Shown here: piece by piece, positions 16,242 through 25,450 of the stretch | How the letters are laid out: every line of letters starts with the position of its first letter | How positions within the stretch are numbered: the stretch's first letter is position 1 | NCBI GenBank assembly: GCA_026195255.1 | Contig: JAPHSS010000005.1 | Span: 1 to 32,007 of the forward strand | From: Gammaproteobacteria bacterium | Lineage (GTDB): Bacteria; Pseudomonadota; Gammaproteobacteria; SZUA-229 | Reading direction: 5' to 3' | Length of the DNA stretch: 32,007 nucleotides | Notes under the pieces: model-generated | Told to the model about the DNA's origin: nothing | Seen by the model: the letters and a program-made list of their open reading frames with translations, nothing else | Databases searched by the model: none | Program-made: the position numbers and the translations under genes

Positions 16242-16730
16242 TTATTCTGACGTACTCTGTATATATTCATGTGGAATTGAATCAAAAGAGTAAACAGTGC
16301 CTTTTTCAGTTTTGGCAAATAATTCTGCGTTACTTTTAGTCGAAAAGGGTACGGCTTCAGGTGCATCCATGCCACCGATACGATCACTGCCTAATACATA
16401 CCAGGCGGTCTTCGCATTTATCCAGTTGTCTTCTCCGGGATTATCCCATTCAGCATTCGACATATCGTTTACATATATAGCCGCAATATTTTTAGGCTCT
16501 TCTGGTGACATTGTGAATGCAATCGTGTCGCGCACTGAAGTAAACCACAGCACTTTATCATCCGTAAGAATAATCTGTCCTTTAGGGCCCTTATGATAAA
16601 CCACAGTCATCAAGCAATAATAACCACTTGCTTCTCGAGTTAAAGTTTGAGCTGCTGGTATTTCAGCAGGAGGTGTTTTCTCACAGGCAGTTAAAGCCAC
16701 TATAAATATCAGGGTTAAAAATTTGTACAT
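16242..16730 (-). CDS. nosL: Copper chaperone lipoprotein NosL
   Basis: The ATG at 16730 gives 162 residues beginning MYKFLTLIFIVALTAC, a lipoprotein signal with the lipobox LTAC (Cys16); this start is preferred to the upstream GTG at 16760, which would extend the signal. NosL binds Cu(I) and passes it to the NosDFY machinery or apo-NosZ in the periplasm. The core motif reads CLMTVVYHKGPKGQI (Cys39, Met41); the usual motif is CGM, so Leu replaces Gly. GGMDAPEAVPF (Met121) is intact. The gene lies 255 bases downstream of nosY rather than tightly joined to it. Confidence 0.93.
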   Translation of the reverse strand: MYKFLTLIFIVALTACEKTPPAEIPAAQTLTREASGYYCLMTVVYHKGPKGQIILTDDKVLWFTSVRDTIAFTMSPEEPKNIAAIYVNDMSNAEWDNPGEDNWINAKTAWYVLGSDRIGGMDAPEAVPFSTKSNAELFAKTEKGTVYSFDSIPHEYIQSTSE

Positions 16731-16950
16731 AATATCTCTGCTATATTTTCTCTTTATCACTTCGAGTTAATTTTAGTGGAAATCGAATAATCTACATTGA
16801 CAAAAATCACTTAATGCTCAATAAAGGGATTACTCTGGGCGCCTACCGGTCTACCTTTCAGGTCATTCTTCGAATATTAAAGACCTTTACATGAAATCTT
16901 TTCAGAAATAACGATGTAAGCATTTGTTAACATAAATACGCCATATCTAC

Positions 16951-16985
16951 GACTTAAGACTTACGACTTACGACTTACGACTATT
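16951..16985. repeat. Heptanucleotide tandem repeat after nosY
   Basis: Five consecutive seven-base units: GACTTAA, then GACTTAC three times exactly, then the diverged GACTATT. The array ends at 16985, directly next to the nosY stop codon (16986-16988). It lies in the otherwise empty 255-base gap between nosY and nosL. Such arrays change length by slippage. Confidence 0.85.
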
Positions 16986-17813
16986 CTACAATTCTCTTTT
17001 CTGAAACAAAAATAACGTCAACATCAGGGGAATAACAACCCAGAGCGACATTACACCTATAAGCAGTGAGCCACTCATTCCTGCTTCACTGGCAATACCA
17101 GCAATACCAGCGGCATCACTTACACCTTCGAACATACTCAAATTAAAGATTCGATAACTGTCTGTCGGGCTTATCAGCATTAATATTGAAAATAGTTTCT
17201 GACCAATTAACTGCCCTTCATCCATTAACAGTGCACCAAATAGTATCAGATCATAAATTACAACAAATACTAACCACAAACCAATTGCTGTACCCGCTGC
17301 AGTTGCTCTTTCTTTTACCGACACACTAACCAGATAACCCAGTGCTATAAACACAGCGCCAAGAACCAGTGAGCTTAACATCATCGTGACATAAGCCTGC
17401 CAGCCTTCGAGGCTGCCACCGGTAAAGACTGTCATTAAAATTATGGCGCCGCCATAGCCGGCGAAGATAGCAATAAATAAAATACTCAGGTGTCCGAGAA
17501 ATTTACCCATTATAACTTGCCAGCGTGAAACTGGATAAGTTAATAACAACATCATGGTACCACGCTCAAATTCACCCACTAATGCATCAAACGAAAGCAT
17601 CAGGGCAATTAGGGGTATTAGATATACACTCAGGCTAGATAAACTAATGACAGTAATATCAAGATCACTGGCTTTTACTGAACCTGTTGGTGCCGAACCC
17701 AGTAATGACAAAGCTAATGCCAGGGAGCCAAGCAAAATTATTGCTGCTGCAATCCAGCGGTTACGTAAACCATCGCGTATTTCTTTCATCGCAAGCACCC
17801 ACAACATCTTCAT
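16986..17813 (-). CDS. nosY: ABC permease NosY
   Basis: A 275-residue membrane protein with six predicted helices. It is the permease of the NosDFY complex, which supports maturation of the CuZ copper-sulfide centre of nitrous oxide reductase. The N-terminus (LWVLAMKEIRDGLRNRW) is typical of ABC-2-type permeases, and the segment EFERGTMMLLLTYPVSRWQ is a family feature. Its ATG overlaps the nosF stop by four bases (ATGA). The stop codon lies immediately beside the heptanucleotide repeat. Confidence 0.95.
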   Translation of the reverse strand: MKMLWVLAMKEIRDGLRNRWIAAAIILLGSLALALSLLGSAPTGSVKASDLDITVISLSSLSVYLIPLIALMLSFDALVGEFERGTMMLLLTYPVSRWQVIMGKFLGHLSILFIAIFAGYGGAIILMTVFTGGSLEGWQAYVTMMLSSLVLGAVFIALGYLVSVSVKERATAAGTAIGLWLVFVVIYDLILFGALLMDEGQLIGQKLFSILMLISPTDSYRIFNLSMFEGVSDAAGIAGIASEAGMSGSLLIGVMSLWVVIPLMLTLFLFQKREL

Positions 17814-18745
17814 GATGGATTTCCAGTCATAAAGTGAGTATAAAGCTCATCAAGTCGTGGTGGCATAATTTGCATATCCTGAACGACATCACCTAAATTA
17901 CTAATGTGACGAATAATAGGCATCTTTTCATGCATATCACAGGACAGATTAAAACTCTGATTATTTATCTCGGTGACATTTACGCTTGAGCCCATGCGTT
18001 CAGCAACACTCGAAGCCTGACCCGGCGTAACGGTTACTTTTACACGAACAGGTAACGTTGCCTGTTGATAAAGTTCGTCTAATGTACCACAGGCAACCAC
18101 TACACCTTTTTTCAAAATAACAAAACGACTCGCTCTGGTTTCAACTTCCTGCAAGGCATGAGATGAAATAATTGAAGTCGCACCTTCTTTTTGTAAACCG
18201 TCAATTAACTCATAAAAATGCTGGCGTAAAATTGGATCAAGGCCGGTTGTAGGCTCATCAAGAAAAAGTAACTGCGGATTACCCAGCATTGCCTGCGCCA
18301 GCCCTAACCGTTGACGCATACCTTTTGAATAGGTACCCACTCGACGTTTTGAAGCATCTCCCAGACCAACCAGATCCAGTAGTTTTGCACATTCTACTTT
18401 GCTGGCACCTTTTAACCGGGCATAAAATGCAAGCACTTCACGCCCCGTCATGGCTTCATAAAATGCGACACTTTCAGGTAAATAACCCAGAGACAAGCCC
18501 TGGGCAACAGCTGCACTAAAAGCGGGATCATGACCAAGCACTTTAATCACACCACTTGTCGGGCGCGTTAAACCCAGCATCATTTTGATTAGAGAGGTTT
18601 TGCCTGCACCATTGTGACCAACCAGTACGATACATTCACCTGATTGAATTGATAAATTTACATCATGTAGTACCGCTTCTTTTGCATAATGTTTATTTAC
18701 TGACTGCAGTGAAATAACTTCACTTGCTGAATTTAACGTAACCAT
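17810..18745 (-). CDS. nosF: ABC ATP-binding protein NosF
   Basis: A 311-residue ATPase with Walker A GHNGAGKT (43-50), the GYLPES Q-loop region (87-92), signature YSKGMRQR (139-146) and Walker B LLFLDEP (159-165). It energises NosY in the maturation of the N2O reductase copper site. The C-terminal hundred residues form the extra domain common in this branch. The start at 18745 lies 26 bases inside the end of nosD, and the stop overlaps nosY, so the three genes are probably translated as a coupled unit. By eye its base composition is clearly more GC-rich than the genes left of 16232. Confidence 0.95.
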   Translation of the reverse strand: MVTLNSASEVISLQSVNKHYAKEAVLHDVNLSIQSGECIVLVGHNGAGKTSLIKMMLGLTRPTSGVIKVLGHDPAFSAAVAQGLSLGYLPESVAFYEAMTGREVLAFYARLKGASKVECAKLLDLVGLGDASKRRVGTYSKGMRQRLGLAQAMLGNPQLLFLDEPTTGLDPILRQHFYELIDGLQKEGATSIISSHALQEVETRASRFVILKKGVVVACGTLDELYQQATLPVRVKVTVTPGQASSVAERMGSSVNVTEINNQSFNLSCDMHEKMPIIRHISNLGDVVQDMQIMPPRLDELYTHFMTGNPS

Positions 18746-20057
18746 CGGTTAAATCTCTTTTAATAACTATTCCTACTTCCGGGGGTTTCATCAGTGGAGC
18801 GCTGTCCGTTACACCGCCGGGATGTAATCCGGGGAATTCAGATTGCGCCCATTTCAATAACTTCACAGATGGACTATTTAACAACAATTTTGCCATAGGG
18901 TGGCGCCAGACAATTTGATCTACCAGATCATTTGGCTTATAAATCTGGTCGGCAATACCATTTGCATCTATATCAAATGATACATTATCACTCCAGTAAT
19001 TACCTGTGCCCTCTTTAGACCATTCAAGATATGTTGTACCCACATATTTTACCTGAGTACGATTATTTATAAATGAATTTAAGTATATTTCATTATTCTG
19101 TGACCCGGCGGTAAAGTGAACACCAATGTCACAGCCTTCAAATGAATTATTATGTATATTATTATAATTTGCGTTATAAATAAAAACGCATTTTTTTGCG
19201 CCTCCAGATACACGATTATTTTTAATGGTTGAGTAATTGGTGAAATTAAAAAACAGACCACGCTCATGATCACCGATTGACTGATTACCACTTGCCACAA
19301 TACGATCAGAAAACATTAAAGCAAAACCAACATGGTTATTAATTGAAGTATTATTCTTAACTACGCTATCAAGAGTGTACATATAATGAATAGCGAAACG
19401 TAAATCCCTGAGTCTGTTTCCTTCAAAGGTATTTTTAGTGCTGTAATTTACAAAGATACCATCACGCCCGTAACGAATATCATTATTCTTTACTACGGAA
19501 CCGGGGGTCTTCCATAAATAAATACCGTTGCCCCTGTCATTCATTCTATGAAAGGTACTGCCGATAATTGTATTATTACTAACAACCGCCGAGTCGGGGC
19601 CTTTTAGATATATACCTATTAAATTATTTTCTAAATGATTTGAATCAACAATGGCACGATCACCCTTATCAGTGATAAAAACAGCGCTGTCTTCGGTATC
19701 ATAATCATTACCGGAATGCTGAATATTTAAACCTTTAATTAATACATCTGGCGCTGAAATGATAATAACGTGCGCCGAACCCTGACCATCAATAATACTC
19801 TGTTTATTGCCTGATAAGGTTAATGTCTTATGTATATTTATTGATCCTGAGTATGTACCCGAAGACAATATAAGTTTATCGCCGGGATTAGCTAAATCTA
19901 TGGCTTTCTGTAACACACCTTTTCCGGGTGATACCTGTATTTCTTCAGCCTGAGTGGCAAAAGATAAACACAATAAAGCGATTAATAAAACACCGGCCAG
20001 TCTGTCAAAAATAACAGTGCTGGCCGATGAATTATCAACTTGTTGATTAAACTGCAA
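18720..20057 (-). CDS. nosD: Periplasmic maturation protein NosD
   Basis: A 445-residue protein with a signal peptide (hydrophobic 20-34, cleavage near ATQA at 34-37). The rest is a right-handed parallel beta-helix of carbohydrate-binding/sugar-hydrolase (CASH) repeats, seen as recurring NN and GN turns (VVKNNDIRYG, FEGNRLRDL, VVKNNTSINN). NosD sits on the periplasmic side of NosFY and takes copper or sulfur cargo towards apo-NosZ. The start is a TTG at 20055-20057, 10 bases after the nosZ stop; the frame is closed by a TAG upstream and no ATG precedes the signal peptide, so TTG is the best choice. Confidence 0.95.
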   Translation of the reverse strand: MQFNQQVDNSSASTVIFDRLAGVLLIALLCLSFATQAEEIQVSPGKGVLQKAIDLANPGDKLILSSGTYSGSINIHKTLTLSGNKQSIIDGQGSAHVIIISAPDVLIKGLNIQHSGNDYDTEDSAVFITDKGDRAIVDSNHLENNLIGIYLKGPDSAVVSNNTIIGSTFHRMNDRGNGIYLWKTPGSVVKNNDIRYGRDGIFVNYSTKNTFEGNRLRDLRFAIHYMYTLDSVVKNNTSINNHVGFALMFSDRIVASGNQSIGDHERGLFFNFTNYSTIKNNRVSGGAKKCVFIYNANYNNIHNNSFEGCDIGVHFTAGSQNNEIYLNSFINNRTQVKYVGTTYLEWSKEGTGNYWSDNVSFDIDANGIADQIYKPNDLVDQIVWRHPMAKLLLNSPSVKLLKWAQSEFPGLHPGGVTDSAPLMKPPEVGIVIKRDLTDGYVKFSK

Positions 20058-20067
20058 CGCTTTGATC

Positions 20068-21999
20068 TTATGCAGGTTCTACCAGCATACGACCACGCAT
20101 TTCCATATGTAAAGCGTGACAGAACCACTGACAGTAGAACCAGTGAACACCCGGGCGGTCAGCGGTAAAGGTAATTGATGATGTCTGCTGTGGCCCGACT
20201 TCCATCGCTACACCATAGTTCGCTAAGGTAAAGCCATGTGTCAGATCATCAATCGCATCACTGTTACTGACATAAACCGTTACTTCATCACCCTGCTTAA
20301 CAGTGAATTGCTCCATACTGAAGTTAGGTGCTATAGACCACATGTAAATACGTACTTTTTTACCATCACGTATTACTTTAGAATCAACACCCAGCTCAAC
20401 ACCATCTTTCTTCGCCTGAGCACTTGCTTCAGCCCACATACGATCACCCTTGGTCCATAATGAATCAGGGTTAACGATGTCAGTACGAACGATAACGACA
20501 TCATGTGGTTCCGCATAAGCCGGGCCATCATGAACGACTTTCATCTTCTTACCGGTAATATCAATCAACTGCTCATTCTCAGGTTTTAATGGCCCCACAT
20601 TAATGAAGCGGTCTTTAGAGAATTTGTTAAGTGATATCAGCCATTTACCATCAGCTTCTTTGGTCTCACCCATTGAGGTATGGTTATGCCCAGGCTGATA
20701 ATGAACATCGAGTTTTTCAAGAATCGGATTAACTTTCTTACCATTATAAGAATCAATCGCTTTCTGAATATTCCACTTAACCGCCTGGCTATCAAGGAAT
20801 AAAGTTGTAAAGGCATTACCTTTACCATCAAATGCAGTATGCAAGGGACCCAGACCTAATTCTGGCTCAGCAACAACCGCATCACGTGGCTTGATTTTAT
20901 CTTTAAACAGGTCAGGTAAACGTCTAACGTCTATTACGGTTACTGTTGGTGACAACTTACCATTGAATACAACATGTATGCCATCAGGTGCAGTGTTACA
21001 ACCATGAGGACTGTTAGGCACAGGAATATAACGTGTATATTTAGAGCCCTTACGACCATCAATTACAGGCACGCCTTTAATGCGCTTAAAGTCACCGGTT
21101 TTAACCGCTTTTTCAATGGCTTTAATATCAAACACAACAGCCCAGTCACGTTCATTTGCCATCATGCCAGCGGCATTAACTGCTTCTTCACTGTTGTAAC
21201 AGGTAGAGAAAGCGTACAGCCCCTGGTAATCCGCATCACAGTTATCCAGGTTACCATCAACCATAACCTGCCATTTAACTTCCATTTCATCACCGTCAAT
21301 CGCAGTGAAAATAGCATGATACTTTTCTGGTTCATCAAGAATAGAACCATCATTTGGAATCGGCACACGATGTTCACCGTTAGCAAATACATAACCGGTG
21401 CGTGGATATTTTTGTGGGCGTAAACCATGAATATCTGACGCATTTGGAATTTCAATGATCTTGTCACATTTCATAACATCGCAGCGTACTCGTGCAACAC
21501 GGGTATTTGCTTTATCATTCATAAACAGGTAACGACCATCATATGTGCCGTCTGTGAATGACATGTGAGGGTGATGTAAATCACCATTTAACCAGACACC
21601 GCCACGGTTGCCCGAATCAAGAAACTTTTTAGTTTCAGGTAGTAAACCATCACGTAGAATCTTACGGCTCTCGTTGGTATCACCCCAGCCTGAAGCACTA
21701 CATCTATTGAATACAGGAACACGAAGTAACTCACGCATAGAAGGGATACCTAAAACACGCATCTCACCCGCCTGTCCGCTACTCCAGAAACCATAATACT
21801 CATCAAGATCTCCTGGACCTACATGCGCACTATTTTTTGCAGCAGCAATGGCTGCTTTAGGTGTCAATACACCCACCCCGGTAAGACCGGCAAAACCGGC
21901 CAGTGCAGCTAACTTAACTGAACCACCTAGTAATTGACGTCGGCTAAGCCCAACCTCTTCGAGTTGTTCATTTTCTGATTTATCTTTTTTAATAGCCAT
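20068..21999 (-). CDS. nosZ: Nitrous oxide reductase NosZ, clade I
   Basis: A 643-residue enzyme reducing N2O to N2 in the periplasm as terminal step of denitrification. The N-terminus has a Tat signal (SRRQLLGG, 19-26), marking clade I. All seven CuZ histidines are present: 142 and 143 (DLHHPH), 191 (DIHG), 332 (SPHGCN), 387 (GPLHTAF), 438 (QPGHNH) and 499 (AEPHD). The C-terminal cupredoxin domain carries the CuA ligands His588, Cys623, Trp625, Cys627, His631 and Met634. The enzyme therefore looks fully functional. A strong GAGGAGA ribosome binding site precedes the ATG. It is the second gene of the nosRZDFYL set. Confidence 0.98.
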
Positions 22000-22115: not shown

Positions 22116-24320
22116 TTACTTCTCCAGCTCTATAGAAATGGCAGAACCACTTTTTCCTTTAACTGATGCAGGATTGACACTTCTACGTTCTTTTTTCAGG
22201 CGTTTTTGTATCATTACCGGGCAGGCATGATCGTCAGAATAAAGCACCTGACAATGCAGACAGTAAAAACACTCATTCACATCAATATCACCTTCAGGAT
22301 GTATCGCCTGAACCATGCATTCATTGCTACAACGCTGACAGGGACTACCACATTCCTTATAACGTTTGAGCCAGGAAAACATGCGCATTTTTCCGGGAAT
22401 TGCCAGTGCCGCACCCAGCGGACACAAATAACGACAGTAAAAACGTTCAATAAAAATACCTGGCAATAATAAAGCCAGTGCAAAGATCACATAGGGCCAT
22501 TCACGCACAAATTTCAGAACAATGGCTGTCTTAAAAGGCTCAACTTCTGCCAGACGTTCAGCCCATTCAAGTGAATAGAGTGAGAAACCAAACAGAAAAA
22601 GAAAAATTAAATACTTAAATGTCCAGATACGTTCGTGAATTGCCCAGGGCACCTTAACCTGCTTAATCTTGAATGCTTTAGCAATTTTATTAAGTAACTC
22701 CTGCAACGCACCAAAAGGACATAACCAGCCACAGTAAACGCCACGACCCCAGAACAATAAAGAAGCTGCAACAGAAGCCCATAAAATAAAAATCAGCGGC
22801 TCCATTAAAAAATAGGCCCAGTCAAAGCCACTTACCAGTGCATTAAACATTGCCAGTATATTTACAACGGATAACTGGGCATTGAAATACCAGCCAATAC
22901 CAAACAGGGTAAAAATTAAAAAACCAATACGAACCTGATCAGTTAATTTTGGACGTTTAACCAGCCAGTTCTGAAAGAAGAATATTAAGGTCAGAACAAA
23001 TAAAGCCAGGCCTAATACAACAACCTCGCCCATCTTTAAATCCCACATTTTCACCCAGATAGCCTGAGATTTTTCTCGATCTTTTACGGTTGTAGTTGTT
23101 TTTTTAACTTTCTTTATTATCAGGTATTCATCGGGGGTTTTATAGTTAAGGTCAAAGGTAAGAAATACTTTTTTGATTGGGCCTATATTACGCCCTACTA
23201 ATAATTCAAGCGTCCATGCATCGGCACCATTAAATTTCAATTCAGCGGGTGTTCTGAATACATCAACATCTTTTAGTTCAGGCGAACCATCAGCCGCAAT
23301 GGAGCGCAAACGTTTGTGATAGCTATCATGAAAACGAATAGACATATCACCCTGAATCACCTGAAAACGATCAAAAATACCACCACGAACATAACCAGAA
23401 CCTTTAAATGAAAAGCGTCCATCACCCGCCAGCATAATAGCCTGTTCGCCTGGTTTTAACTTTTTAAGGAGGTTTTTATACTCACCTTCACCTAGCAGAC
23501 TTTTGCCAATACTTGGCACAGAAACAACAGCTGCATAAAGCTCTATAAATACTTCTGCGTCATCTCCTTCTTCTGGAAAATCAAGCACAAGCTCTTTACC
23601 ACTATCTTTAAAGGCCTGATTAATTTGCCCGACAGTCAGTTTTAAACTTTTAACAGAGCCTTCTTCAAGCAAGCTCTGCCAGTCTTTTACAACGTTAATA
23701 TCAGGATTAATGGTTGCAACCGGACCTACTTTCTTTATTTCAACTTCGAGACCTGATAAACCATAATTTCTGGCGACTTTAATAGATGACCTTAAAATAT
23801 TGTCATCCATTACCATTATGGTAACTGTCGCACCGGATACAACATCAATATCATGATCCTGCGTACCACGAACCAGCTTACCTACATCCAGCCCTTCATA
23901 TTCAGTAAGTACCGCTGTAATTTTGCTTTCTGGAATACCAATTAGAACAATGGGCTCATGATGCTCAACCAGTAATACTTTTTTGATAACACCCTGCATA
24001 TCAAGGGCGACAAGTTGATGTATCGGTTTACCTGAATAGCCGGTTGTATTGGTGTAATCTGACGTTAGAAAAACAAAACCAAGTTGCTTTCCGTCTTTAT
24101 ATACAGGTGCTACTAGAGGGTCGCCAATTGGTGAACCTAGTTTATCTGCACCAGGGAAAATATCTTGCGCTTTAATAACATCAAGAAAACGAGTTAGCTC
24201 TGAATTTGCCTGTACAGCGGTTACGGGTAAACACTGCAATAAAAGTAATAAAATAAGCGATTTCAAGGTGTTACGATAACCCATAATCAGGGTTAAGCCT
24301 TTTTCGAATATATGCAGCAA
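22116..24320 (-). CDS. nosR: N2O respiration flavoprotein NosR
   Basis: A 734-residue membrane protein needed for nos expression and electron supply to NosZ. After a signal region comes a periplasmic FMN-binding domain with the flavinylation motif SGATVT (162-167). Then follow membrane helices with CPFGALQELL and CRYLCPLGAALAIP cysteine motifs, and a C-terminal cytosolic ferredoxin-like part with cysteine clusters CGSPCQRCSNEC and CFYCLHC. The predicted start is TTG at 24320 with AGGAG ten bases upstream; an ATG at 24284 lacks a ribosome binding site but would give a tidier signal peptide. The promoter lies in the 185-base space shared with the divergent ferritin-like gene. Confidence 0.96.
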   Translation of the reverse strand: MLHIFEKGLTLIMGYRNTLKSLILLLLLQCLPVTAVQANSELTRFLDVIKAQDIFPGADKLGSPIGDPLVAPVYKDGKQLGFVFLTSDYTNTTGYSGKPIHQLVALDMQGVIKKVLLVEHHEPIVLIGIPESKITAVLTEYEGLDVGKLVRGTQDHDIDVVSGATVTIMVMDDNILRSSIKVARNYGLSGLEVEIKKVGPVATINPDINVVKDWQSLLEEGSVKSLKLTVGQINQAFKDSGKELVLDFPEEGDDAEVFIELYAAVVSVPSIGKSLLGEGEYKNLLKKLKPGEQAIMLAGDGRFSFKGSGYVRGGIFDRFQVIQGDMSIRFHDSYHKRLRSIAADGSPELKDVDVFRTPAELKFNGADAWTLELLVGRNIGPIKKVFLTFDLNYKTPDEYLIIKKVKKTTTTVKDREKSQAIWVKMWDLKMGEVVVLGLALFVLTLIFFFQNWLVKRPKLTDQVRIGFLIFTLFGIGWYFNAQLSVVNILAMFNALVSGFDWAYFLMEPLIFILWASVAASLLFWGRGVYCGWLCPFGALQELLNKIAKAFKIKQVKVPWAIHERIWTFKYLIFLFLFGFSLYSLEWAERLAEVEPFKTAIVLKFVREWPYVIFALALLLPGIFIERFYCRYLCPLGAALAIPGKMRMFSWLKRYKECGSPCQRCSNECMVQAIHPEGDIDVNECFYCLHCQVLYSDDHACPVMIQKRLKKERRSVNPASVKGKSGSAISIELEK

Positions 24321-24437
24321 GTGCGTTCAACTCCTAAAACATGCAATCGTTTTTATTGCATAAACTAACGGCAATATGGTGGACGCGATAATTGTAATAT
24401 AATGCCCGCTATTGTGCGACATTTTGTCACATCTTAA

Positions 24438-24451: not shown

Positions 24452-24505
24452 GTCAACGTCAGAATTATAGAGTAAATTATACAAATTGAAGGAGCCGCAG
24501 AAAAT

Positions 24506-25450
24506 ATGTTATCAACAAATGTAAAAACCACCAGTGATCTAATGAGTATTGCACTTCAGGCTGAACGTGAAGCAATTCGTCGTTACACAATGCTCGCTGA
24601 ATCAATGCATAAAGGCATGAACGAGTCGGCCGCGGCCCTGTTTGAACGCATGGTCGCTGAAGAGACTGAACACGAACGATTGTTACTTGAGTGGATGGCA
24701 AAAGAAAATATTAGTGAAAACCCGGATATAGGCCCCATAAAGTGGAAAGACCCTCATGTCTCAACTGTTTACAACGATGAAGCCTACGACCCATATTACA
24801 GCACGCCTTATAAAGCATTAGCGTTTGCAGTGCATAACGAAGAAATTGCATTTAAATTTTATACACATGTGACAGCAAATTCTGAAAATGAAGCCGTTCG
24901 TAAATATGCTGAGATTCTGGCCCGAGAAGAACTGGGTCATGCTGCTCTGCTCAGAGCTGAACGCAGGCTTGCTTATCACAAAGAACTCAAATCACATAAC
25001 ACACCGCCGAAAATTGATCCTGAAATAATTCAAAACCAGTCGGACCTGTTAGCCGCTGCAATACATATAGATGAATATTTAGAAAGTCAGATGGCGATAG
25101 TGGCTGAGAAAAATCCAGAAATAGAAACACTAAGAAAAGACACACAACAACAAATAAGTATTAATAAAAAAACACTAAGCCATCAAGAGCCACCGGGTGA
25201 TGAAATTACCCAATCACTTGATCAACTTAAAACCTATAACTCTGAAACTAATGAGCGCCTTGATAATCCAGACCTTCAGGTACAACGATTATGGTCGTGC
25301 TGTGACCGAAGTTTCGCATTCTATGATGCTGTTGTTGAATCAACGACTGATGAAGCGGTTATGTTGACAGCACAGAACCTTACAACAACGGCGCTTGATC
25401 GAATTGGGGTTTTAAAACAGGTATTTGCCGAAACAACAGACCAGCCTTAA
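24506..25450 (+). CDS. Tandem ferritin-like di-iron protein, second domain degenerate
   Basis: A 314-residue soluble protein. Residues 11-158 form a rubrerythrin/ferritin-like four-helix bundle with a full di-iron set: Glu20 or 22 (QAEREAIRRY), Glu53 and His56 (EETEH), Glu112 or 113 (HNEEIAFKFY), Glu142 and His145 (EELGH). Residues 180-308 repeat the same pattern: DLLAAAIHIDEYLESQ matches DLMSIALQAEREAIRR, and FYDAVVESTTDEAVMLTAQNL matches FYTHVTANSENEAVRKYAEIL. In this second copy the last ExxH becomes AxxR (296-299), so it should not bind iron. There is no rubredoxin domain. An iron store, peroxidase or NO-related role is possible. GGAG (24490-24493) precedes the ATG. The stop overlaps the convergent cyclase stop. 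Confidence 0.82.
   Translation: MLSTNVKTTSDLMSIALQAEREAIRRYTMLAESMHKGMNESAAALFERMVAEETEHERLLLEWMAKENISENPDIGPIKWKDPHVSTVYNDEAYDPYYSTPYKALAFAVHNEEIAFKFYTHVTANSENEAVRKYAEILAREELGHAALLRAERRLAYHKELKSHNTPPKIDPEIIQNQSDLLAAAIHIDEYLESQMAIVAEKNPEIETLRKDTQQQISINKKTLSHQEPPGDEITQSLDQLKTYNSETNERLDNPDLQVQRLWSCCDRSFAFYDAVVESTTDEAVMLTAQNLTTTALDRIGVLKQVFAETTDQP

Follow-up and report, generated by a model that had tools for sequence, protein, structure and literature searches.

Organization of the locus

The window, by which we mean the entire 32,007-nucleotide stretch of gammaproteobacterial DNA analyzed here, carries a nitrous oxide reductase cluster and, divergent from nosR, a gene for a two-domain ferritin-like protein, for which we coin the name FLP (Table 1). 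Homologues are similar to FLP in length and, where annotated on plasmids, are called 'ferritin family protein' or 'rubrerythrin family protein'. By eye, no signal peptide or membrane helix was recognizable in the chain, and we therefore place FLP, provisionally, in the cytoplasm.

Table 1. Features of the FLP locus; positions refer to the window and residue numbers to the FLP protein.
Feature	Position	Strand	Basis or remark
FLP (two-domain ferritin-like gene)	24506..25450	+	ATG start, 314 aa
AGGAG, likely ribosome binding site of FLP	24490..24494	+	read from sequence
Domain 1 (residues 9-162), rubrerythrin/COG1633-type four-helix bundle	24530..24991	+	PF02915, AlphaFold2 helices, 2oh3 match
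Domain 2 (residues 178-311), ferritin-like bundle without di-iron ligand set	25037..25438	+	AlphaFold2, 2oh3, ligand counts
Di-iron ligand codons: E20 (24563), E53 (24662), H56 (24671), E112 (24839), E142 (24929), H145 (24938)	24563..24940	+	
A296-L-D-R299, degenerate ExxH of domain 2	25391..25402	+	A, V or M at 296 in 33/33 and R at 299 in 31/33 gammaproteobacterial rows
FNR/DNR-type box ATGACATAGATCAA, one mismatch to TTGAYNNNNRTCAA	24438..24451	+	in the nosR-FLP intergenic region, centred ~61 bp ahead of the FLP start
nosR, divergent neighbour of FLP	22116..24320	-	51-53% to annotated NosR/NirI of five plasmid nos clusters
nosZ, Tat-type (clade I) N2O reductase	20068..21999	-	65-72% to the TAT-dependent nitrous-oxide reductases annotated in these same clusters
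nosD, nosF, nosY and a nosL-like gene	16242..20057	-	tblastn against annotated nos clusters

FLP is a tandem duplication of a ferritin-like domain

To place the two halves of FLP, we combined profile searches with structure prediction. The Rubrerythrin family PF02915 matches domain 1 at 5.5e-16 (59.6 bits against a cut-off of 22.8; best stretch residues 12-72), and the best solved sequence match of this domain is PDB 2oh3 (1e-7). Residues 175-314, searched alone, gave no Pfam or NCBIfam family above cut-off, the sole match of domain 2 in the profile libraries being Swi5 at E 0.13, below the cut-off of that family. The AlphaFold2 model of the full chain (pLDDT 84.4) places the main helices of domain 1 at residues 9-36, 40-66, 101-125 and 129-162, and those of domain 2 at 178-200, 206-225, 232-251, 255-279 and 283-311; domain 2 folded alone yields four long helices and one crossing helix (pLDDT 91.1, pTM 0.86). 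As to the packing of the two halves into a fixed heterodimer, the pTM of the full model is only 0.57.

Using VIA-align, 2oh3 ranked first for the full model (Z 15.8 over residues 7-168) as well as for domain 2 alone (Z 14.2, rmsd 2.6, 125 residues), followed in the latter case by a Pyrococcus relative, symerythrin, rubrerythrin and bacterioferritins (Z 13.0 to 12.7). Residues 178-311 accordingly form a predicted bundle that matches 2oh3 as residues 7-168 do, the likeness of the halves being judged indirectly, through this common match. The Foldseek E-values were weak, at best 0.0065 for the full model and 0.06 for domain 2, where the top row was a designed bundle. Because helical bundles without kinship can reach Z 13-14 by common arrangement, part of the fold argument is carried by the in-register sequence repeat. 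A profile of domain 1 scored 23.4 against domain 2, aligning residues 113-150 with 267-304, a score reached by one of 300 column shuffles; a second match aligned 6-21 with 175-190. In single chains, BLASTP of the front against the back half gave 21.9 bits for the protein of the window, 26.6 bits for G188 (E 6e-5, helices A-B), 23.5 bits for G222, and 21.6 and 21.9 bits for two Azospirillum chains; 5 of 13 chains scored above all of their shuffles (0/100 as high for each), and the other eight were not clear of their own shuffles. On the column shuffles and the single-chain shuffles together, we rejected a chance resemblance of the two halves. In FLP, a COG1633-type ferritin-like domain has been duplicated in tandem.

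The two tandem ferritin-like domains proposed in a sequence-only reading of the window are thus borne out by the predicted bundles, the common 2oh3 match and the in-register repeat, and so is its remark that no named family of this layout is known: the two-domain, half-dead, nosR-paired family is unnamed in Pfam and NCBIfam, domain 1 alone being of a known kind. Full-text literature searches, with subscription journals mostly outside their scope, returned no title or abstract describing FLP among the matches listed (for two of the searches, the best 20 of 467 and the best 15 of 59), and the portions available of PMC6515984, PMC5582078, PMC6710368, PMC7762939, PMC5658584 and PMC3317640 do not mention it.

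Free-standing copies of domain 2 occur at L054:9162-9665, L063:9133-9660 (G035) and G753:C15:967-1410, from which it follows that the domain can be a unit of its own. The first two lie ~200 bp downstream of FLP and carry a Cys-rich tail (ECGC...C). A CxC tail (ECGC or KCGC) also forms the C-terminus of FLP itself at L054, L056, L059, L064 and L072; it is absent from the protein of the window.

The di-iron ligand set is complete in domain 1 and lost from domain 2

The series E, ExxH, E, ExxH, which we take to be the di-iron ligand set of ferritin-like domains, is complete in domain 1 (E20, E53xxH56, E112, E142xxH145), as had been claimed from the window alone. E20, E53, H56, E142 and H145 are invariant in 33 of 33 gammaproteobacterial rows and E112 is present in 32, while all six are kept in 12 of 12 alphaproteobacterial rows of our alignment (A4). 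By analogy with the family, these six residues would bind iron. Residue 115, three residues after the helix-C ligand and presumably the place of the extra helix-C Glu of rubrerythrin, is Ala in 32/33 gammaproteobacterial and 12/12 alphaproteobacterial rows.

The set is incomplete in domain 2, with Glu at neither 266 nor 296 in any of the 33 gammaproteobacterial or 12 alphaproteobacterial rows. In the window, C266 takes the place of E112, A296 that of E142 and R299 that of H145; position 266 is Cys, Ser, Ala or Thr throughout the gammaproteobacterial rows, and two of the 12 alphaproteobacterial rows carry a His at 299 that is not accompanied by the Glu. The register of the helix-B equivalents is less certain; they do not form an ExxH, and the counterparts of E53 and H56 have very probably been lost as well. 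The second domain is therefore dead, as the sequence-only reading held to be probable, and the loss goes beyond the final ExxH to which that reading had limited it. Acidic residues persist at 189 (D or E in 32/33 gammaproteobacterial rows) and at 267 (33/33 gammaproteobacterial and 11/12 alphaproteobacterial rows); Arg299 is a candidate to fill the former metal site against the retained acid. Across the two classes the equivalences in helices A-B of domain 2 are unsure, because MAFFT sets Glu200 of G188 on Leu182 of the window and a direct reading of the DL starts equates it with Asp189; helices C-D are in register.

FLP is paired with nosR in two classes of bacteria

Next, we surveyed the neighborhood of FLP in other genomes. 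Scanning genome contigs with domain-1 patterns alone gave 37 gammaproteobacterial loci (a second match at L064, which soon runs into a stop in the frame tried, was left out of the count). A divergent nosR lies upstream of FLP at 35 of them, bearing out the position opposite nosR first noted in the window; at the remaining two loci, L071 and L080, the start is separated from a contig edge by 2 and 74 bases. Among 58 relatives, FLP is present in 16 genomes of the family of the window, a NosZ at least 85% identical to that of the window in 16, and both in 15. The two exceptions fall at contig edges, with FLP starting from base 2 in G032 and NosZ lying at base 212 in G007, which has only a weak, partial 29% NosR match elsewhere. 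Ten family genomes with a distant NosZ type (36-38%) gave no FLP (0/10, some genomes being incomplete); nine of these have no NosR match at 1e-10, and in the last one, G009, a 38% NosR match goes with a 62% NosZ fragment. Two further genomes of the window's class, G013 and G053, combine a more distant nosR (36-38%) and a NosZ of ~50% with absence of FLP. The genes downstream of FLP differ between loci by eye, and on this ground we rejected general synteny as the cause of the linkage.

Wider surveys gave a comparable picture. Of 397 Pseudomonadota genomes, seven have an FLP match above 110 bits, all other matches reaching at most 50, and all seven have a clade-I NosZ within ~5 kb on the same contig; NosZ carriers number 63 in this set, with a strong FLP match in those seven and in none of 20 others of the window's class. 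The 337 alphaproteobacterial genomes yielded 30 with a match at 1e-15, and in 16 of these the match is full-length and two-domain. NosZ is no more than 5.3 kb away in fourteen of the 16, and in the other two (G510, G589) FLP adjoins nosR on a contig that ends inside or just after that gene. Two-domain FLP matches occur in 15 of the 32 alphaproteobacterial NosZ carriers. Both surveys together comprise 21 two-domain genomes, every one with FLP beside nos genes and 19 with FLP divergent from nosR; in G222 and G568, FLP stands downstream of nosL on the same strand. The divergent arrangement includes G451, where ~1.4 kb separates FLP from the nosR match, and G587 and G660, where nosR has its place beyond nosL, at the distal end of the cluster, again with FLP as its divergent neighbor. 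Since FLP goes with nosR in the latter two genomes, it is nosR, and not nosZ as such, to which FLP is linked, and on their layouts we rejected a nosZ-only link. Between the two classes the link holds at 24-30% identity.

On plasmids, 50 of the 60 FLP rows listed (of 64), including that on pSymA of Sinorhizobium meliloti 2011, are divergent from NosR within 600 bp. Nine of the ten others have no NosR among the 60 of 224 NosR rows listed, so that NosR need not be absent; among these nine, the A. thermophilum FLP adjoins NosR and that of CP140953 stands beside a NosR fragment. For the remaining row, NZ_CP144206, each search gives two places, one of them listed. Together, these data establish that FLP is paired with nosR in two bacterial classes, a conserved linkage as expected of a nos accessory gene; as many nosZ carriers lack FLP, it is not essential to N2O reduction in general. 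The claimed tie to the N2O reductase genes consequently stands for the nos cluster and for nosR, and not for nosZ as such, and the two-domain homologues are nos-connected throughout apart from one extra paralogue. This second FLP-like gene of G673 (G673:C1:2040057-2040548, L187), matched over residues 8-168 and with its domain-1 ligands apparently intact by eye, lies ~62 kb from the nos-linked FLP, with no nos neighbors within a 16-kb stretch.

Several loci have neighbors of separate note. On pSymA of Sinorhizobium meliloti ml47 (L087, 6977-8801), FLP lies beside a NosR fragment match only, next to ric and NnrS, and no nosZ match occurs in the 8 kb upstream, possibly a natural nos loss that spared FLP. 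Near the nos-FLP locus of Azospirillum plasmids (L088, L092) we observed U32 peptidase and SCP2-domain genes (A. thermophilum), and in the vicinity of that of A. brasilense a family 2A encapsulin with a cysteine desulfurase cargo.

A shared box in the nosR-FLP intergenic region

Of 58 nosR-FLP intergenic regions, 44 carry an FNR/DNR-type box that deviates by no more than one mismatch, compared to 1.9 expected from base shuffles (some rows are near-copies), and 25 carry an exact box, compared to 0.02 expected. Among the 36 gammaproteobacterial regions, 35 have the box to within one mismatch, in line with the shared NO/low-oxygen box proposed from the window, and in 31/36 it is centred 46-79 bp ahead of the FLP start. 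Exact TTGM-N6-KCAA boxes were found in 15 of 25 alphaproteobacterial regions (0.32 expected), the other 10 being without. The window scanned alone gives 18 matches to the box against 7.3 expected, so that its own box is not significant by itself. In Bradyrhizobium diazoefficiens, a FixK2-type box precedes nosR at -131, according to the part of the paper available (PMC6710368). Just upstream of the box of the window, an imperfect inverted repeat (24413-24431, TGTGCGACA-TTT-TGTCACA) is possibly the site of a second regulator.

Domain 2 is constrained, and domain 1 ligands are lost in some relatives

In six within-genus pairs, the dN/dS of domain 2 was 0.14-0.24, compared to 0.05-0.07 for domain 1 (rough values, with dS above 1 in several pairs). 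Judged by these ratios, domain 2 is evolving under purifying selection, and on this ground we rejected its decay into junk. Its helices C-D are better conserved than helices A-B (mean identity 0.59 versus 0.38).

We then counted ligands in 36 aligned members, comprising 22 of alignment A4 (10 of them gammaproteobacterial) and 14 further alphaproteobacterial rows. All six domain-1 ligands are present in 28 members and all but one in L085, which has K at 112; the remaining seven, all alphaproteobacterial (7 of the 14 further rows), have lost two or more. G587 and G660 have lost two (Y for H56 and K for E142), G490 three, G715 four, and G741, G451 and G494 five each. All seven nonetheless give a full-length match beside nosR, and this loss of ligands with retention of the locus makes a purely catalytic role doubtful. 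In a tree of the 36 members, the five most damaged rows sit on very long branches, compatible with one loss or several. By its residues, domain 2 is a putative pseudo-ferritin in every member examined. Of the catalytic/pseudo-domain pair envisaged for the window, the pseudo half therefore holds in general, and the catalytic half is not always intact. A tie between a damaged domain 1 and an extra single-domain copy (5/7 versus 1/9 genomes) was considered and dropped, as the extra copies of the five genomes are 2oh3-like by eye and have no nos genes nearby.

A putative accessory of NosR

NosR is a membrane iron-sulfur flavoprotein of the NosZ pathway. In Pseudomonas aeruginosa, it has redox centres on the cytoplasmic side and serves as an interaction platform with many partners, according to the portion available of PMC5658584. 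We tentatively favor, at somewhat less than even odds, a reading of FLP as a cytoplasmic accessory of NosR-type N2O respiration, with an iron-active domain 1 and a pseudo-ferritin domain 2 that serves in binding. Low oxygen or NO would switch on nosR and FLP together via the intergenic FNR/DNR/NnrR/FixK-type box, and FLP would act at the cytoplasmic side of NosR. Domain 2 would serve as a module for binding or assembly, whereas domain 1, through its di-iron site, would remove or handle peroxide, O2, NO or iron that is harmful to, or needed by, the cytoplasmic Fe-S centres of NosR. The roles suggested from the window alone, in nitrosative stress, iron supply or NosZ protection, are no more than candidates. 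In lineages in which domain 1 is dead too, the binding role alone would remain; as the locus is retained even where the iron site is gone, we rank binding to the Nos machinery before catalysis. Against this accessory role we count the many nosZ carriers without FLP, its absence from G013 and G053, the G673 paralogue, and the layouts of G222, G568 and G451. Divergent pairing with a shared promoter could, moreover, by itself hold nosR and FLP together.

A bolder version, which we consider possible though on balance unlikely, makes FLP an unrecognized NosR subunit or dedicated chaperone, a duplicated ferritin fold turned protein binder that has become a double pseudo-ferritin in some lineages. 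Somewhat less probable to us is a stand-alone, rubrerythrin-like scavenger of peroxide, O2 or NO that is merely co-expressed with nos at low oxygen and whose domain 2 is a structural leftover. Such an enzyme would account for the intact ligands of most members and for the ric (YtfE-type) and NnrS genes among the neighbors in some alphaproteobacteria; it also has a precedent in ferriperoxin, a rubrerythrin-like protein without a rubredoxin domain, which the part of PMC3317640 available describes as a peroxidase driven by ferredoxin:NADPH reductase. A free enzyme, however, need not adjoin nosR where nosR is elsewhere in the cluster, and the explanation is at odds with the 7 of 36 members that keep their place with damaged or absent ligands, and with the purifying selection on domain 2.

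It appears less likely again that FLP is an iron handler, that is, a ferroxidase, an iron chaperone or an Fe-S repair factor feeding the Fe-S assembly of NosR. Ala115 at the presumed place of the extra helix-C Glu fits this explanation, since we take a ligand set without that glutamate to be closer to the bacterioferritin type, as do the weak relation to the iron exporter MbfA (35.9 bits) and the ric neighbors in Shinella and Sinorhizobium; ligand-less members that keep the locus speak against it. Hitch-hiking of an old divergent pair, inherited together without working together, is improbable: most gammaproteobacterial loci are close relatives and a shared regulator alone could hold the pair, but the link spans two classes at low identity and several layouts (two with nosR beyond nosL, two with FLP downstream), and the genes flanking FLP on its other side vary by eye.

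NosZ is the enzyme that converts the greenhouse gas N2O to N2, with NosR serving it in a manner so far poorly understood. FLP, which accompanies nosR in alpha- and gammaproteobacteria, the laboratory strain Sinorhizobium meliloti 2011 included, and has an anaerobic-type box in common with it, is a testable lead on an overlooked accessory of N2O respiration. It also shows, within a single chain, how a metalloenzyme domain can turn into a pseudo-domain in nature, and the further step, loss of the first site as well, is visible in its relatives.

Comparison with known systems

By fold, the best solved match of both FLP domains is a COG1633 single-domain protein, 2oh3 of Magnetospirillum magnetotacticum, whose alignment with domain 1 agrees at five of the six ligand positions, with Ser in place of E53. 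Proteins of COG1633 have one domain, whereas FLP adds a second, ligand-less copy and the tie to nosR; single-domain copies of COG1633 type in five FLP genomes have no nos gene within ~8 kb. Rubrerythrin, sulerythrin and ferriperoxin have the PF02915 domain, above cut-off, in common with FLP, and differ from it in that FLP has a pseudo-bundle after domain 1. Classical rubrerythrin ends in a rubredoxin-like FeS4 domain, whereas the C-terminal half of FLP is all-helical and matched no rubredoxin family, and the extra helix-C carboxylate of rubrerythrin presumably corresponds to Ala115; on these two grounds we rejected an identification of FLP as a classical rubrerythrin.

MbfA, an iron exporter in which a ferritin-like domain is fused to a VIT1-like transporter, resembles FLP in its N-terminal domain. 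The MbfA model NF045676 reaches 35.9 bits against residues 9-151, its cut-off being 450, and with no match in the C-terminal half and no transporter half in FLP, we rejected this identity as well. RIC/YtfE, an annotated di-iron protein that is sometimes a neighbor of FLP, is encoded by a separate gene, and the Pfam and NCBIfam scans of FLP returned no RIC family. Pairs of a di-iron subunit and a homologue without a full site are familiar from the alpha and beta subunits of bacterial multicomponent monooxygenases, from ferritin H and L, and from yeast R2. In those systems the two partners are separate chains, whereas FLP holds both in one.
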